Assembly (NCBI GenBank): GCA_034231615.1
Contig: CM067315.1
Span: 33,966,156 to 34,030,155 of the forward strand
Reading direction: 5' to 3'
Origin: Meghimatium bilineatum
Lineage: Eukaryota > Mollusca > Gastropoda > Stylommatophora > Philomycidae
DNA: 64,000 nucleotides
Made by a program: the position numbers and the translations under genes
The notes under the pieces: generated by a model
What the model saw: the letters and a program-made list of their open reading frames with translations, nothing else
Databases searched by the model: none
Told to the model about the DNA's origin: nothing
Shown here: positions 9,791 to 63,952 of the stretch, one piece after another
Position numbering within the stretch: position 1 is the first letter of the stretch
Layout of the letters: each line of letters opens with the position of its first letter

Positions 9791-12119
9791 AGATATGCTA
9801 TGACAACAACTTCTTTTTCTGCGTTGTCTTTCTGATAACCAATACGAAAGTTCTTGTGATTTCCGCCTGGGAACTTGAAGTACATTTTGCCTCTATTTTA
9901 CAACATAGTTGTTTTATGTGCACTTCAGAAGGCACAGCATATGCGTTTTTGTCATGCATTCAGTTTGTGTGAACTTCCCTAGGCTGTGACAGCCTTCTTA
10001 TATGTAACCAGACGGCAAATGTGCGTCGACTCTAAACAGTTACGGCTTCTCGCCCACTGTGACCTTGAGCTTTTCAGGCCAAAACATGTTTCTTGGTGAC
10101 AGTCTCCTAGGAGGCATTAACCGCGGGCTTAGACTTGGGCCGAATACGTCTATCTCGCACGAGGTGTTCCGCGACCAGTGAACACTTCTCGCGTAACTAG
10201 AGCATTGTGTGTGTGCTCATAGGGTACTGAACCTTTCTTCTACGCAAACATGATTCCGGTATAGGAAAACCTCGACAGTAGAGTTGGACCTGAGTTCGTT
10301 CGTCCTCTGAGCCTATGTCATTCACCGACATCGTCAACCTCTCGTCCACGACTGATTTTCTACCCTTAGTTAGAAGCGATGGGGGCTAAAAGCAGTTCTC
10401 AAGCTGAACACACATTTAGTTCAGATTTCCTAGTAACGTTTTCCCTTTTCTGTTTGCACGTGGCGCTGCCCTCTGAGCTGTGCTGTCCTCTCATTGTACT
10501 TAATATGTTATCATTGTGGATACTAAAGCACTCATGACATGCACCCATTGGCCACTCTTCTAATGTTCCTATCAGATTCTTTTGCGCGACTGTCTGTCGA
10601 CAGTGCCGCTGTATGTGTTGGCGCAGATGTGTCTGAGATGTTGTCTGTTTTTAACAGTCAATTCTCATTCAATCAGCTACCTCCACATTCACGGGCACGA
10701 TCCTCAAAAGTGTTGGCCACAAGCACAGAACAAGTTATTTCTGCTAACGGTGTACACCACGAGAAGGTACTTTTTGATCTTGGTGATCTGCTAACCATGG
10801 GACCGCACGAGAGCGATGCGGTACCTTTTGCACCCCGAAGATAGCTCTATCCCTCCTTAATCTTTCTCCCATTAATTAAGTAAGTATATCACCGCCCCCG
10901 ACTGTTTTTATGACGTAGTAGCAAGTCATTTTGTATGTATAGATGTCTGTGCATCAATACATGAAAAATCTGAGCTGATTTTTTTTGCCTATGTGACCTC
11001 GTTGCAAACGATTGTTTACCGCTTCAAGTTTGCTTCAAGCGTGAGCCCACAGAATCGGGTATGGAAACCCCGTTGTGGATAAGAGAAAGGTCGGAGTTCA
11101 CATCCGATGTACTCAGGGAAGTCAGCGACATTTCTTTTTGTTTTTACCACACTTGAGATTGGCCTTTGGCGGTCCAGAAATCTGGGCAGTTATGAGCCGA
11201 ATGAAGAGTTAGAGAAAGACTGAAAGAGGTGTACTTTCAGAAAGGAATGTGTTTGACTGAACATTTGTATTGGTGCGCGTCCACCACATCACGCACACAC
11301 ATAAATAATAAATACACGCAGGTATAATAAATATATAAATATCACAAGTAATAATAAACATGCGGTTGTATTAGCGTTGTTTACGTCACTCGCACATTAA
11401 ATAGCACACCCGGTTGCGTGTTCACTCGTTCTTCGTGGTTTGAAATAAAATTGACAACCTTGTTTCACCCAATCACAAGGAAGTAGGGTACCAGTGCATA
11501 TGCTTTGGAAAAGTTGAGAAATGTCGCCATCGATACTAAGCAAGTGATGTAGGTGACGATAGTCGGGCTGTTTCTGCTCGACTACTGACTAAGCAGTGAT
11601 GACTAAGCAGTTGACCACTTATGAGAAACCACATATTCTATCACGCTGGTTCATAAACTCAGCTTATACTTACATTTCTCTTTGTCTTTGGTAGCATATC
11701 CTATGCAGGACTTGGCTATCGATCCAACACGTTTTTGGTTGTAGTGATTTTCTAGGCAATATAAATACCGTACGTTCAGTAGTTTGCCAGTGCTTTCTGG
11801 GCGGTACGAATACACCATTGCCTGTGGCGGGATCGAATTCGGTACCTTGGTCGTCACAGACGGGATATTGTACCACTCCGTCAGAGAGCCGGACTACGTA
11901 CATTTATACACAGTAAACACACTCAAGCATGTACGTGTACACTACAGATGTTGTGTATCCTTGTACATATGTTGTGCATACTTGTGCATATGCTGTTCGT
12001 CCATCACAAATAAAGATAACCATTTGTTGTGTTTCCTGGTCTGTCCTTTCGGTTAGCACAATTGGAAAAGATGTATTTCCAATTAATTACATGTCGGAAT
12101 GATGGTTTCATAATTAAAG
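9791..12119. other. No gene recognised; somewhat higher G+C at about 10000-10860
   Basis: Open frames of 60-100 codons (for example 10539-10844) have no recognisable domain. The 10000-10860 part is less repetitive and richer in CpG than its surroundings. It could be an older transposon or a regulatory stretch. A tRNA B-box-like ggagttcacatcc is at about 11090. Nothing firm is seen. Confidence 0.35.
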
Positions 12120-37159: not shown

Positions 37160-37495
37160 CTATATCTGTAATTCTGTATCCTTAATAAAACTCACTGTCT
37201 TTTGTAGTTCATACAGTGTCCCATAGAGTTTTGATTCCAGTGTTGTTTCCTCTGGCCAATATGTCTGCCTCAGCGTTTCATGCTCAGAACACTCTTGAAG
37301 TATATGTTTGGCACTCTGTGCTGCCTGTCCACATGTACACATGGCCGTGTTGCCAATCTTGAACTTTGTATACATGTGACTGCGGAGTCGGTTGTGTCCT
37401 GTTCTGAGACGTAGAATTATAACTTGTTCTGATCTGTTCATATTGTGATAGTCATCTTGTGTTGGTGTTTGTGGCTTTCTTATTGACTTTATCAT
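37160..37495 (-). pseudogene. LINE ORF part 3: C-terminal Cys/His region
   Basis: 111 codons ending in a normal stop just before the (GAA)n tail. Contains LRLRTGHNRLRSH, then CTCGQAAQSAKHILQECSEHE (a C-x-C...H...C cluster) and WPEETTLESKLYGTL. The same tail is found in copies at 1099-2103, 29500-29820, 49726-50060 and 57998-58325, and is typical of RNase H-bearing LINEs. Confidence 0.88.
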
Positions 37496-38763
37496 CTGTT
37501 TTTTCTGATGGTAGGTGATTGGTATATCTGGTTGGTCTTCGGCAGCACCTTCTTAGCCAGTTGGTCTGCTTTTTCATTTCCTGGTATTCCACAGTGAGAG
37601 GGTATCCACTGCATGGTTACCCTATACTGGTAAGACAATTCGCTAAGTAGTTTTTTTAAGTCTGTTAGTTTTCCAGACTGGAGAGCTTGAAGCACTGACC
37701 TTGCATCTGTCAGGAATACCACAGGCTGTAGGTCAGAGTTGGAGTTCAGCAGTTTTTTAGCTGCCACACTAATTGCCTGGATTTCTGCATCATAATTATT
37801 GCAGAATTTTCCTGTCGGTGTTCTGATTGTATCTCTAGGCTTGTGTGGATATTCTATATATACACCTGCACCTTCATTCCTCACAGCATTCTGTGCTGAC
37901 CCATCTGTGTACACTCTGACCCATATATCTTGTGGATATTCCTCATCCAGGAAACTGAGGGTGACTGTCATTCGCTGCACACTGTTCTGTTCGTCCTCGC
38001 TTAGTATTCCTTTCACATGGGTCTGAATGTATATTGGCATTCCATGGCTTTCACTCCACGGGGTTTGCTCTGGTACAGACCTTAAGGGGCTGCCAACTTC
38101 AGGTAGGTCTGTAAGTTGTCTACGGAGTCGTTTAGCTTGATGGATAAAGCTGCTCCTTTTCAGTCGTCCCATTGCTAGATTTTGGAATCTTTCCTTCATT
38201 GGATGACTTGGCATACACTGAAACTTTTCTGCTTGAATTAGTACTTTTGTGTCTCTGCGTTCGCCAAGTGTTTGCATTCTTCCCATTTTCTGCATCTCTG
38301 CTATGGGTGTTGATTTCATTGCTCCCAACATTATTCTAAGTGCCTGGTTTTGCACTTTATCTAGATCTTGTAATGTGGTGTTTGATGCAGGACACCACGC
38401 AGCTGAACCATATTCCAGGTGTGGTCTTATGCCTTGCTGGTAAACTTTACTGAGTATATTCCCACTGGCTCCCCATGTGGTTCCACTTAGTTTTCTCAGG
38501 ATAGCTAACTTCCTCCTGGCTTTTGTTGTTGCTTTGTTTATGTGCTGCTTCCATGTCAGTTTATCATCAAAAGTAACTCCGAGGTATGTGGGTTGTTTGT
38601 CTTCTTTCAAGAGCTCTCCATCTATTTTGATATGACCGGCTTTTTGTTTTGGTGAGAGGGTAAAAAGTGTAGTGCTGCACTTATCTGTGTTAATGCTGAC
38701 GCACCATCTATTAGCCCATAAGGTTAGGGCATCGATAGCTCTTTGTATTTGTTTAGTGGCCAC
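37492..38763 (-). pseudogene. LINE ORF part 2: RT thumb and RNase H
   Basis: 423 open codons continue the protein after the first frame break. Residues 1-150 hold the region after the RT (CVSINTDKCST, PTYLGVTFDD, IRPHLEYGSAAWCP). RNase H lies at about 283-404, with the catalytic set in place: Asp in YTDGSA (about 287), Glu in YDAEIQA (about 327), Asp in LTDARSV (about 353), Asp in GNEKADQLA (about 400). Unlike the copy at 1099-2103, the first Asp is present. One base is missing in the Lys-Glu-Gly codons near 37550 compared with both other copies, which ends the frame early. Confidence 0.9.
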
Positions 38764-38776
38764 TGTCGCATGTTCT

Positions 38777-41002
38777 TCAGATCACCAGGTCGTCAGCATA
38801 CATTGCCACTTTGATCCCGTGTGGTAGTTCAGCAACTAGGTCATTGATGTAAACCAAGAAAAGTGTGGGCGACAGGACTCCTCCCTGGGGGACTCCATGA
38901 CGCAGTAGAACTTTCTTGCTCTTGCGACCATCTAATTGTACCCTGGCTCTTCTATTATGCAGGTATGCTTTTACCCATTTGTACATTCTTGAGCTAACCC
39001 TGCAATTTCGCAATTTCTTTAGGAGCCCTTCTTTCCAGACCTTATCAAATGCTTTTCTGAGGTCTATCCATGCTGCTAGTACCAGTTTCTTTTCTTGGAA
39101 GGCATCCTCAATCTCTTGGGAGAGGTAGGTTGCCTGATCTTCAGTAGAGTAGCACTGTCTGAAACCTGCTTGCTGTGATACCAGAAGGTTTTCACTTTCA
39201 AGGTACCACTGCATCCTAAGATTGATAATGCGTTCCATTGTTTTGCATAGACAGCTTGTGAGGCTGATGGGCCTGTAGTTGGAGACTGTGTTGCCATCTT
39301 TTCCTGATTTGAGGAGTGGTATCATTATTGCTTCTCTCCACGCCTGTGGTACATTACCCGTGGACCAGCTTGTGTTAAAGATCTGCAGTAGCTTTGCTCT
39401 TGCTGCATTTCCCAGGTTTCTAATCATTTCATTGGACACTCCATCAGCTCCAGGGGACTTTTTCATTTTCAATTTGGATATTGCATGCTCCAGTTCTCTC
39501 ATTGTGATTGGTGCCTCCATGACTTCAGGTATAGGTTCACCTTGTCCAATGTTTTGCTGGTTCTCTCGAACCTCCTGTTGTTTGTCTGGGCTGACTTTGA
39601 CGTTATTGTCTTCTGCAAAGGAATCTGCAAAGTAATCAGCTGCATGTTTACCTGTTAAAATGTTTCTATCTTTATAAAGTGTGATCCTGGTATTTCTCCC
39701 TGTACCTTCATCATTTAGTTGTTTTACAAGTTTCCATAATTTCCTAGTATCACTTTCTAGGTTCAGCGACTCTGTTTTTTCTTTCCAGCTGCTCCGTCTG
39801 GCTTGTAACTTGGCTCTTTGAAATTTAGCCTTTGTTTGCTGATATTTGTTGTGATGTTCTTGGCTAGGTCTGTTTTCAGCCTGCTGTCTAGATGTTTCCA
39901 TCTCATTTTGCAGCTTTTCCACTTCATCATTCCAGTAGGGTTTGTAGTTTTTGCGTGCTCCCCTGTGTATGGTTTTACTAGCAGCATGTAGTATACATCT
40001 ATTAAATTCACTCACTGCTCTATTGATGTCTTTGTCCAAGTTCATGTCCTTAGCTAGAACACTGGTTAAATGCTGGTACATTTTCCAGTCTGCCCTTTTA
40101 TAGTTCCACCTAGTGAGCGTGCTGCTGTCCGTGGTAAATTCATTGTGGATTTCCAGAAATACTGGTCTGTGGTCACTACCTCCAAGCTGCTTTCCAACAA
40201 CACGTGTGATGTTCCATTCCAAGCCTGGTGAGTGGAATGCTAGGTCTGGTGTAGAGGTGGTGTGCCATGCTCTCGAGTAGAAGGTTGGCGAGTCTGCTGG
40301 CTGGTTAATAAGGATGAGATTATTTTCATCCTGCCAGCTCTCAAGTTCCTCACCTCTCTTGTCGATATGATCGTAGCCCCAGCTCTGAGAGTGGCTGTTG
40401 AAGTCACCACACACCATAAGTCTCTCTTTGTCTGGAATTGTGTCTAGTGCCAATGGTTTATCATTTGGGCAGTAGTAGTTCAGGAGATGGAATTCTGCAC
40501 TGTCTGTTTTTAGGTGGAGCATCTGGTATTCTGCCCCTTCCATATATACTTCAAGCTGACATGCGCTGATATTGTTTTTAACAAGTGTCAGAATTCCACC
40601 CTTTCGCCTGTCCTTTCGGTCAGATCGGTAGCACTGGTAGCCTCTGATTTTGAAGGCTATGTCGCTGCTGAGGTGTGTTTCTTGGATACAGCATATGTTA
40701 ACTTGTTCTTCACTGAGGACATTTTCAAGTTCCAATTTTTTGCTGTATCCATCTCTTTTACTGTTGACACCCTCAGCATTCCAGTGCATTATTTTTATTG
40801 GTCGTTTGTTTGTTTGGCCAGTAGCTCTATTCCCTTGCCTCCTGGCTCCTCGGGGCAATTGAGAAGGACTTCCAGTAACTGAGGTTGGGCCCTTTCGAGG
40901 TACAGGGCCCGGCACCGTCCCTGCCTGAACGTCCGCCACAGGGCAGGCACCATAACTATTTATAGATGTAGACATGTTTCCATTGTGTTTTGTGCGTGGC
41001 AT
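38777..41002 (-). pseudogene. LINE ORF part 1: AP endonuclease and reverse transcriptase
   Basis: 741 codons from ATG at 41002. The AP endonuclease spans about residues 68-285, with HWNAEG (73-78), CIQETHL (105-111), GDFNSHSQSWGY (199-210) and GSDHRPVFLEI (275-285). This enzyme nicks target DNA. The reverse transcriptase spans about 500-741, with YRPISLTS, AWIDLRKAFDKVW (first catalytic Asp), HGVPQGGVLSPTLF and AMYADDLVI (catalytic Asp pair) at the very end. A small deletion just after YADDLVI (near 38775) puts the rest in another frame. Residues 1-67 are Pro/Gly/Arg-rich and have no recognised domain. The start is the first ATG in frame downstream of the 5' UTR. Confidence 0.92.
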
Positions 41003-41171
41003 CCTGATTATCTGTGCGCCTTTTGGCTGGATACCTCCGTCTTCAGCACTCTGCTTACTAGGGCAGGACTATGGTCCTGCTCGAGTGGGACTGCCCGACC
41101 AGTCTTAGTTTCCAGCCCCTGATGGCTGAACTAAGCCCCATCACCTCTGCACGGTGCTGGTCTCGATGGAG

Positions 41172-45518: not shown

Positions 45519-45980
45519 GATCGACGTCCAGATCTCGTGGGTTCTCATGGCGGGTTTGGCCACTTGGTCAGCTCTAGCTCCGGGTCGTTCTCCGCTGCTC
45601 CCAGACTCAGTCACACTCCTGCAGGTGCCGCGGACTTCCAACCACCGTACTTCCCTCCTCCATATCAACCACAGCAACCAATGGACTTTCACCACCACCA
45701 GGTGGACCCTTACAGTCATGTAAACCCTTTCCAGCAGACGGGCCAGCACTATAATCAACTTCATCCAGCAGATAGAAGCATGCTGGCCCGCAGGGATGAT
45801 GCCCTCAACATGCACCCGGGCCTAAGCGGTTATGATACACGTCGGGCAGATTACATGGCAGGTCTAAGGCGTTCTGATGTTCTTCATCATGGACCCCATC
45901 ATGGACTTGGGTTGGATCAAGACCCATCTTTACTTAGTCTTCACGCAAATCCACTTGGAGGCCTGGACGACGCAAACCAG
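45519..45980 (+). CDS. TFAP2: TFAP2 transactivation-domain exon
   Basis: 462 bp (154 codons), phase 0 at both ends, between acceptor accttattttctcag and donor CAG|GTACGT. AP-2 proteins bind GCCNNNGGC-type sites and regulate ectoderm, neural and nephridial or crest-type genes. The peptide starts DRRPDLVGSHGG and contains the family hallmark ADFQPPYFPPPYQPQQP with its PPxY-type core. Then follow VDPYSHVNPF, PGLSGYDTRRADYM and LHHGPHHGLGLDQDPSLLSLH. All align in order with the vertebrate AP-2 N-terminal exon (PYSHVND, LSGLDPRRDY, LLHGPHAL). Its codon use is clearly less A+T-rich than the surroundings. Initiation is not in this exon. Confidence 0.96.
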
Positions 45981-45984
45981 GTAC

Positions 45985-46215
45985 GTTCTAAAAGTTGTGT
46001 TTATCCAGGTTAGTCTGCGTGCCTTACTGTTGTGTTTTACCAGGATGTTCCACACTTTTTACTGTCGTGTTTAACCAGGTTAGTCTACGTGTCTTACTGT
46101 GATGTTTAACCAGGATCTACACTTCTTTTAACTAAGATTTTTCACATTTCTTACTGTTGTGTTTAACCAAGTTATTTCACATTTCTTACTGTTCTCTTTA
46201 AATAATTCCACATTT
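45985..46215. repeat. Degenerate tandem repeat directly after TFAP2 exon 2
   Basis: About 5 copies of a unit of about 40-50 bp containing tgtttaaccaggttagtcta and cgtgtcttactg. It includes repeated caggttagt words that resemble splice donors (46006-46014, 46076-46084). Confidence 0.7.
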
Positions 46216-48379: not shown

Positions 48380-49130
48380 GACAAGGACAATCCCTCCCCA
48401 ACACCCTAACATTTGGTTAGCGCATTCAGCGGCAGATTCCGTCTATCCTCACAGTAAACACGGCTCTAAGTATTTCAGCGAAGTCTTTTGTCAAAGCTGT
48501 TTGACGCTAGGAACTTGCACAAAAATTCCTAGTAAATTGTTCGCACCCGCCTCAATGGGCGAAGATTATTGGGGGATTTCCTGTATCAGCCCGCTGTAAG
48601 TGTACACATTTGGGCTTTTGCCGTATAGACAAGGCCCTGTTTCTTTCCGCCCATCGACAGTGCGCGGCGTCTCCACTGCGTTGTTTAATTCACAAAAGAG
48701 AGAGATAATGATATTATCGTCTGTTATAAAAACATCGACGGCGATGTAAAGCGGAGAGTAAGCCTTCACACACAAAAAAAACTACCCAGTTGAATAGACA
48801 GAAAAATGAATCCTTGAATTTGTCACGTGACACAAATTTTAATAAAGTTCGCAGCTTGGCGTCAATTGGAAAACGATGTTTGGAATTTAACCGGCGAGTT
48901 CTAAGCCTGGAAAATTGACAAACTTAGACGAGGTTTATCAGCGACGTAAGTGAACAGACAAAAAGGCACATTATAAAACTGGTTGTGTAGCCAGCCCGTG
49001 TTTGATAAAACGCTGATTTGGGAATATACATCTCGTTCCGCCTTGTTCATTATTTGCTAGCGTCTGGTATCAATTAGATATTTGACGCTAACAAATTTGT
49101 TGAACCCAGTCAAGCGAACTCGAAAGGCTC
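48380..49130. promoter_or_regulatory. Low-repeat, CpG-containing block in TFAP2 intron 2 (candidate conserved element)
   Basis: Unlike its neighbours this block of about 750 bp has no tandem array, no LINE words and no family repeat. Its composition is balanced (for example gacagtgcgcggcgtctcca, cggcggcg-poor but CpG-rich at 48640-48680). The place, inside a developmental regulator's intron, fits an enhancer. There is no direct evidence of function. The 69-codon minus frame (48566-48775) has no domain. Confidence 0.3.
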
Positions 49131-49725: not shown

Positions 49726-50395
49726 AATGTTCTTCTTCTTTCTTTCCTCCTACTTATATCTAAATTATTGTCTTCTGTACACTTGACTGTGTTCTGTATA
49801 AACTTGACTGTTCTGTAACTCGCACAGAAGTCCGTATACTTTTTTCCCAGTGTTGTTTCTTTGGGCCAGTGTATTTGTCTCAGCAATTTATATTCTTGGC
49901 ATTCCTGAAGAATATGTTCTGCTGTCTGAGGTGCTTTTCCACATGTAGACAAAGCCATGTAGCCAATCTTTTTACATGTATAACTGCAGAGTCCGTTGTG
50001 TCCTGTTCTGAGGCGCAGAATGACAACTTGTTGTGGTCTGTTCATTATTTGATGTGCTGGGAGTTGGCGTTGAAATTGCTGGTGTGATCATTAAAATCAT
50101 GTTTCATCTGATGGTACGTTATTGGCACTGATGGGACGTTATTGGCACTTATGGTACGTTATTGGCACTGATGGTACGTTATTGGCACTGATGGTACGTT
50201 ATTGGCACTGATGGTACGTTATTGGCACTGAAGTACGTTATTGGCACTGATGGGACGTTATTGGCACTGATGGTACGTTATTGGCACTGATGGTACGTTA
50301 TTGGCACTGATGGTACGTTATTGGCACATCTGGTTGATCTTCATCAACCCACTCCTTAGCCAAACAATCTGGCGTTCTCGATTACATGTATAACC
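49726..50395 (-). pseudogene. RNase H-LINE C terminus with internal minisatellite
   Basis: The minus strand reads, from 50390, CLAKEWVDEDQPD (RNase H end), then the 20-bp array, then from 50045 MNRPQQVVILRLRTGHNGL, STCGKAPQTAEHILQECQEY and HWPKETTLGKKY. It ends at a GAA-rich tail (49730-49745). Amino-acid matches to the long element are clear but much weaker than those of the young copies, so it is an older subfamily. Confidence 0.8.
50109..50332 (-). repeat. 20-bp minisatellite born from RNase H-LINE codons, about 11 copies
   Basis: The unit is gtgccaataacgtaccatca on the minus strand, encoding V-P-I-T-Y-H-Q in its first frame. The long LINE has single codons for IPITYHQ at the same place (DQPDIPITYHQKKQ). 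One unit has a 1-base deletion. Because 20 is not a multiple of three, expansion destroyed the frame. Confidence 0.92.
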
Positions 50396-58325: not shown

Positions 58326-58404
58326 ATATATTCATGTGTGAGTACTTCACATGTGATATATTATTGTATAGTATACATAGTCTCGGTGTCTAGCTCTTTA
58401 GCGC

Positions 58405-58650
58405 AACCACTCCCGTCATCCCACCACGTCAACCTCACCTTTAGCCCAACCACTCCTGCCATTCCACCACGCCAACTTCACCTTTAGCCCAACCACTCCT
58501 GTCATCCCACCACGTCAACCTCACCTTTAGCCCAACCACTCCTGTCATCCCACCACGTCAACTTCACCTTTAGCCCAACCACTCCTGTCATCCCACCACG
58601 TCAACCTCACCTTTGTCCCAACCACTCCTGTCATCCCACCACGTTAGCCT
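58405..58650. repeat. 42-bp tandem array, about 6 copies
   Basis: The unit contains cccaaccactcctgtcatcc and caccacgtcaacctcacctt. It starts about 80 bp after the LINE fragment. Confidence 0.92.
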
Positions 58651-58679
58651 AACGGTTATCATTAGATCTATTAAACCCA

Positions 58680-59340
58680 ATATAATATTTAATAAATGGC
58701 TAAATCCATATCATTTGATCTCAGCCATCAATCTGCCATCCAATAACTGGCTACATCATTATCCATATTTCTCATCCAACAACCTAGCATCCAAACGAAT
58801 GGCTATATTCATATCCAGTTTTCTCATCCAACAATCTGTCACTCAACAACATGCCACAATAAACTGGCTACATACATATTCTTTTTCCTCATCCAACTGG
58901 CTACATCCATATCCGTTATTTCTAATCCAACTGGCTGCATCCATATCCTTTATTCCAAATCCAACTGGCTACATCCATATCCTTTTTTCACCCAACAATC
59001 TGTCATCCATCAGCCTGGCATCGGGCAATCTGACATTCAATAAAGTGGTTACATCTAACAACCTGACATCCAACAGAGTTTCTACATCTAACAACTACAC
59101 ATTCAACAAGGTGGTTACATCTAACAACCTGACATCCAGCAAAGTGATTACATCTAACAACCTGACATCCATCATCTTTCATCAAACATCTCCATACAAC
59201 ATCCCATCCAGAAAAATCTAATCCAACTCACATCCAAAAATACGTCTTCAACATCTCATCCAACAACTAACTTCATCCAAGTTATTACACCTTCCAACAT
59301 CCCATCCAACATCTATATACAACCATTCTATTGCTTCTCA
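58680..59340. repeat. Degenerate (catccaac)-type repeat field before TFAP2 exon 3
   Basis: Irregular units such as aactggctacatccatatcc and aacctgacatccaacaaagt recur. The 202-codon + frame over it is low-complexity (SNNLTS repeats) and not supported as coding. The field runs to within about 10-60 bp of the exon 3 acceptor. Confidence 0.75.
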
Positions 59341-59348
59341 TCTAATAG

Positions 59349-59406
59349 CCTCAACTGGATGACTCAAGTTCATATCTAACTGGTGACCATAGCTCCATCA
59401 GAAAAG
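59349..59406 (+). CDS. TFAP2: TFAP2 58-bp exon (phase 0 in, phase 1 out)
   Basis: A small exon that is too short for usual ORF lists. The acceptor follows a pyrimidine-rich tract (ttgcttctcatctaatag, ending 59348) and the donor is AAAAG|GTAAGC at 59407. It encodes PQLDDSSSYLTGDHSSIRK plus the first base of a Gly codon. The end DHSSIRK-G matches the vertebrate AP-2 exon 3 end DQTVIKK-G, including the split Gly codon. Its start phase (0) fits exon 2, and its end phase (1) fits exon 4 at 63717 (which begins GT, giving GGT). No stop lies in the joined frame. I judge it correct on phase, splice sites and the DxxxIxKG match together. Confidence 0.82.
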
Positions 59407-59429
59407 GTAAGCATTCTTAATGTTGTAGT

Positions 59430-59705
59430 TATCGAGTTATAATACATACAAAACCAGCAACTACAGACCAATGGTTTGGTCATCTGGAAAGAATGCTGTG
59501 TGATTCATTAGTTTATAAAGCATATACTAAGAGAGCAGAAGCAGAAAGAAAAGCCAAGGGTAGACCTAGAGTACGCTGGATCGACAACATCAAAGAGACA
59601 TTACACGAACACCAAATAACATTATCTGAAGCTGCCAGAAAAGCGAGAACAAGAACATTGTATCTCCCTCGACACACGTAAAGGGTAAAAGAGGAAGGAA
59701 AGAAG
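59430..59705 (+). pseudogene. LINE C-terminal fragment just inside intron 3
   Basis: The + frame reads QWFGHLERMLCDSLVYKAYT, then AKGRPRVRWIDNIKETL and EAARKARTRT. Typical WFGH...GRPR-x-RW-x-DNI LINE tail. It starts about 25-45 bp after the exon 3 donor. Confidence 0.78.

Positions 59706-63655: not shown

Positions 63656-63952
<297 letters not shown>

Follow-up and report, generated by a model that had tools for sequence, protein, structure and literature searches.

A short exon 3 in a molluscan TFAP2 gene and its counterpart in a second gene copy

We asked whether a 58-bp segment lying between tandem repeats and the tail of a LINE is a genuine exon of a TFAP2 (AP-2) gene or an accident of its surroundings. 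The segment is located in a stretch of 64,000 bp (C18:33966156-34030155; hereafter the window) of a 1.61-Gb slug genome in 32 contigs. Evidence for conservation was drawn from two genes of this one genome, the TFAP2 gene on C18 and a second one on C19. On the basis of the sequence comparisons below, we assign a probability of about 0.96 to the reading that positions 59349-59406 form exon 3 of a molluscan TFAP2 gene and that this exon is conserved and normally included; the exon is very probably genuine because the second gene copy keeps it at the same place. Coordinates are collected in Table 1.

Table 1 Features of the C18 TFAP2 locus and the corresponding C19 exon (window positions unless a contig is named; a slash marks an exon border).
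Feature	Position	Strand	Description
TFAP2 exon 2, transactivation region (DRRPDLVGSHG...GLDDANQ)	45519..45980	+	462 bp; donor CAG/gtacgt; phase 0 end; protein 76% identical to C19
Tandem repeat arrays	58396..59171	.	43-, 52-, 34-, 33- and 66-bp units with gaps between; upstream of exon 3
Intron 2 acceptor AG	59347..59348	+	tctaatAG/; C19 exon 3 likewise begins tAG/CC
TFAP2 exon 3 (putative)	59349..59406	+	58 bp; PQLDDSSSYLTGDHSSIRK plus first base of Gly codon; homologous 61-bp C19 exon; frame carried from exon 2 to exon 4
Intron 3 donor gtaagc	59407..59412	+	AAAAG/gtaagc; 6/6 bases same as C19
LINE-tail peptide, recognizable part	59466..59678	+	WFGHLERM..GRPRVRWIDNIKE..; diverged relatives at other sites of the window and at further loci of the genome
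TFAP2 exon 4, start of DNA-binding region	63717..63921	+	205 bp; 61/67 residues identical to C19 (91%)
C19 exon 3 (putative)	C19:66447193-66447253	minus	61 bp; tag/CCACAGATCGATGATGGAAGTTCGTATCTGCACTTGGAACATCACTCCATTATTAGAAAAG/gtaagc; PQIDDGSSYLHLEHHSIIRK-G; phases 0 and 1

The candidate exon and its gene

With its borders, the candidate exon reads tag/CCTCAA...AGAAAAG/gtaagc, entered in phase 0 and left in phase 1. Its codons, CCT CAA CTG GAT GAC TCA AGT TCA TAT CTA ACT GGT GAC CAT followed by AGC TCC ATC AGA AAA G, translate to PQLDDSSSYLTGDHSSIRK-G, and exon 4 opens with GT ATC CGT at 63717, completing the split codon G/GT for Gly. The segment lies on the same strand as, and between, the transactivation exon and the exon encoding VFCSVPGR. 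Coordinates, length, acceptor, donor and phases 0/1, as given in the initial annotation, were all reproduced from the sequence. By the exon coordinates, introns 2 and 3 measure 13,368 and 4,310 bp. Exons 2 and 4 are separated by 17,736 bp, in which the word AAGGTAAG has a single occurrence, at the exon 3 donor, and the 111 bp around exon 3 matched only themselves in a genome-wide search that skipped simple repeats.

The frame containing exon 4 matched Pfam model PF03299 (E 6.4e-21). Joining exons 2-4 of the window to exons 5-7, found at loci farther downstream, produced a single open frame of 435 aa with a stop at its end, which matched TF_AP-2 (PF03299) with E 1.9e-73 and 247 bits (cut-off 23.4). 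Among solved structures, the joined protein matched AP-2 alpha (8j0k; E 1.7e-101) and AP-2 beta (E 1.1e-100), with exon 3 falling outside those structures. Across the genome, the AP-2 Pfam model gave eight matches (13 candidates scored), four each on C18 and C19, consistent with two genes that each encode the domain in four exons. The exon-2 protein had two genomic matches at E ≤ 0.01 (three candidates scored), one in each gene. TFAP2A comprises seven exons in the available text of PMC3219183, compared with which exons 2 to 7 were located in the C18 gene. Exon 1 was not recognized in the window or in the 42.6 kb upstream of C19 exon 2 using three plus-strand motifs and an open reading frame comparison (best 40 matches). 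MLWKS at 11500 was rejected as an exon 1 start, as a stop follows immediately. Scanning the window with Rfam at the gathering threshold and for tRNAs gave no matches, and a literature search on molluscan AP-2 or AP-2 exon structure returned nothing usable on molluscs.

The molluscan origin proposed in the initial annotation is supported by 50 genome matches to the mollusc haemocyanin domain (PF14830), located on C15 and C22. The occurrence of AP-2 on two contigs, and of haemocyanin likewise on two, would agree with the genome duplication in land snails and slugs described in the excerpted text of PMC12328838; according to an excerpt of PMC12506671, 31 chromosomes occur in this group. COX1 had a single genome match, located in a mitochondrial-like fragment that is embedded in a large contig (L018, C2:121989805-121990428). 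Upstream of the COX1 piece, this fragment contains what we take, by eye, to be ND2-like and ND4-like sequence.

The counterpart in the second TFAP2 gene

With the peptides of exons 2, 3 and 4, we searched by tblastn a 79.3-kb region of C19 surrounding the second TFAP2 gene. The best match of the 19-aa exon-3 peptide (E 3.6e-4; next match 0.11) lies on the coding strand between C19 exons 2 and 4, which are 35.9 kb apart. This C19 exon resembles the C18 exon in position, phases, acceptor (tag/CC), donor (gtaagc) and 13 of 19 residues, but is longer by one codon (SIIRK versus SS-IRK). The initial annotation had regarded a different exon-3 peptide at another place in this intron in related species as evidence against its reading; the C19 paralogue was found to carry a homologous peptide with corresponding position, phases and donor. 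A DNA-level blastn comparison of the C18 and C19 regions lacks the exon pair among its 30 best matches, while it does list repeats and a common stretch at 48387-48887. The homology of exon 3 is, therefore, founded on protein, phase and splice sites.

The common stretch itself (window 48387-48887 versus L013:574-1089 on C19) is 66% identical over 526 aligned columns and has the same order and strand in both introns. In the window and the retrieved loci of the genome, it matched, apart from itself, just this C19 counterpart at E ≤ 1e-3, and it is either an old repeat or a conserved noncoding element.

Between the C18 and C19 genes, pS amounted to 0.79 in exon 2, 0.83 in exon 4 and 0.66 in exon 3, and dN to 0.13, 0.04 and 0.30, respectively; the exon 3 rates, which also include pN 0.25 and dS ~1.6, are rough because only 19 codons enter them. 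Judged by these values, the two paralogues are old, with synonymous sites of exons 2 and 4 near saturation, and unselected sequence would, therefore, be expected to be scrambled. Exon 3 has retained its shared residues (13/19) despite diverged synonymous sites and flanks, identity dropping at the splice sites to 14/50 in the ungapped upstream flank and 17/50 downstream, including the 6/6 bases of the donor. Its 19 mismatches are distributed over codon positions 1, 2 and 3 as 5, 4 and 10. Exon 3 is the fastest-changing of the three exons compared; this dN value and the one codon fewer in C18 count against tight constraint.

The retained residues also bear on a reading in which the segment is a pseudo-exon, that is, a random open AG..GT segment near repeats that looks like the linker by accident. 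We collected all open AG..GT segments of 40-100 bp that lead from phase 0 to phase 1 between exons 2 and 4, without using the candidate, and obtained 368 for C18 and 1,256 for C19. An open segment alone means little because 368 of them exist in C18, and the absence of the exon pair from the 30 best DNA matches of both regions likewise speaks for coincidence. Against it stands the result of scoring 239,678 segment pairs, after pairs differing by more than six residues in length had been dropped: the exon pair scored 55 (mean -19.4, s.d. 8.7) and ranked fourth. The three higher-scoring pairs are mutually overlapping (49850-50004) and repeat-like, the opposite strand there containing an open reading frame that resembles, by eye, the C-terminus of LINE open reading frames in the window, with no Pfam match. 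Among the best 25 pairs, a gtaag donor on both sides is found only in the exon pair and in the tenth-ranked pair, a variant that differs from it in starting later on the C19 side. Considering also that the C19 exon agrees in place, strand, phase and donor, and that residues were retained while synonymous sites and flanks diverged, we regard a chance origin as very improbable.

Reading frame and possible skipping

As a genuine exon 3, the segment would be spliced between the transactivation exon and the exon opening the DNA-binding region, would supply 19 linker residues and one base, leading from phase 0 to phase 1, and would thereby set the frame for the entire DNA-binding and dimerization domain. 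It is presumably transcribed and included in the mRNA, and the linker is probably flexible.

When exon 2 is joined straight to exon 4 through the usual sites, a stop follows after 12 codons in C18 and 11 codons in C19. An alternative that is still live is that exon 3 is optional in C18, a skipping isoform staying in frame through other sites. We tested donors past exon 2 and acceptors ahead of exon 4 within the open frames; without exon 3, the frame remained open to the end of exon 4 in 10 of 18 donor-acceptor combinations in C18, three of them with a donor matching the consensus at 8/9 positions. These routes include donor 46009 (CAG/gttagt, 8/9 consensus) joined to exon 4 and the usual exon-2 donor joined to an acceptor at 63671 (catccag/). 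By contrast, none of the three C19 combinations kept the frame, and the alternative C18 routes are therefore unconserved; furthermore, as judged by eye, a series of near-repeats containing similar ccagg(t/a)t words begins at donor 46009. We consider an optional exon 3 in C18 unlikely, and give equally little credence to the view that the duplicates diverged in splicing such that exon 3 became skippable in the C18 gene but not in the C19 gene. If this had happened, skipping in C18 would yield an AP-2 protein whose transactivation and DNA-binding regions are connected by a different linker. From the sequence, the C19 gene seems to require a middle exon; the C18 gene would require one only if the unconserved alternative sites are unused. 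The near-repeats with ccagg(t/a)t words, among which donor 46009 lies, were seen by eye directly 3′ of exon 2 at 45981-46200.

A normally included exon 3 has parallels in vertebrates, where the exon-3 peptide ends DQTVIKK, and the initial annotation had likened the slug end DHSSIRK-G to DQTVIKK-G. Printed zebrafish exon junctions agree with this likeness for the last residues. In the passages of PMC2940735 that give its oligos, the reverse complements read CAAGAAAG/GTGAGA for tfap2e and GTAATCAAAAAAG/GTAAGC for tfap2a (the latter labeled e2i2). Both imply a phase-1 K-K-G junction in which the first base of the Gly codon follows two basic residues, and slug exon 3 also ends with basic residues and the G of a Gly codon. 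Over the last residues of the zebrafish peptide, to which this comparison is confined, VIKKG is matched by SIRKG in C18 and IIRKG in C19; SIIRK of C19 is closer to zebrafish VIKK than is SSIRK of C18. According to the same passages, the zebrafish exon likewise lies between exon 2, which ends CAG/gt in tfap2e, and the exon preceding the DNA-binding domain, and deleting tfap2e exon 3 causes a frameshift with loss of the DNA-binding domain. Skipping, thus, shifts the frame in zebrafish tfap2e as it does by the usual sites in C18 and C19. In the excerpted text of PMC11777392, the tfap2e transcript skipping exon 3 is 50 bp shorter, which gives an exon of ~50 bp as compared with 58 bp in C18 and 61 bp in C19.

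Annotation is prone to overlook microexons, which are short internal exons, as stated in excerpts of PMC8831610, PMC7821500 and PMC12409088, where limits of at most 15, 30 and 51 nt, respectively, are applied. At 58 nt, exon 3 exceeds the widest of these limits and was not classified as a microexon.

Repeat surroundings and consequences for annotation

Words of the type catcc/catct continue past the tandem arrays to 59310, with one further word at 59339. On the other side, the LINE-tail frame is open from 59421, and its recognizable peptide begins ~60 bp downstream of exon 3. The setting is roughly that described in the initial annotation (repeats within ~10 bp and a LINE remnant at 25-45 bp), the recognizable LINE tail lying slightly farther away. 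This proximity raises the question of whether exon 3 was recently made from the adjoining repeat field by tandem-repeat exonization. Although the exon adjoins the arrays and has short words in common with them (for example, caactgg and ttcatatc), the longest exact word common to the arrays and the exon with its splice sites is 8 bp, on which ground we rejected a repeat origin. In addition, the C19 exon is homologous despite differing flanks, and exon 3, therefore, predates the split of the two genes. Recent exonization is accordingly given hardly any weight.

Exon 3 is an ordinary, standard part of a known TFAP2 gene, and its interest lies mainly in annotation. It is plausible that automatic annotation would overlook it. 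This 58-bp exon would decide in which frame a developmental transcription factor is read, and a gene model without it would either lose the DNA-binding domain or contain an invented join. For annotating exons of this kind when RNA is not at hand, the gene pair serves as an internal control, since the duplicate can be consulted.

Repeats also border exon 4 of the C19 gene: its acceptor is at the margin of a tandem array with 8.7 copies of a 43-bp unit (L010:353-724, corresponding to C19:66436353-66436724). The array contains seven copies of CAG/GTATACGACC, comprising the acceptor and the first exon bases, and the frame after exon 3 is open only from the last of them. Elsewhere in the window, the minus strand carries a LINE at 37495-41068 with endonuclease, reverse transcriptase (E 6.8e-32) and RNase H in two adjoining open reading frames, and an additional RNase H piece at 1102-2160.
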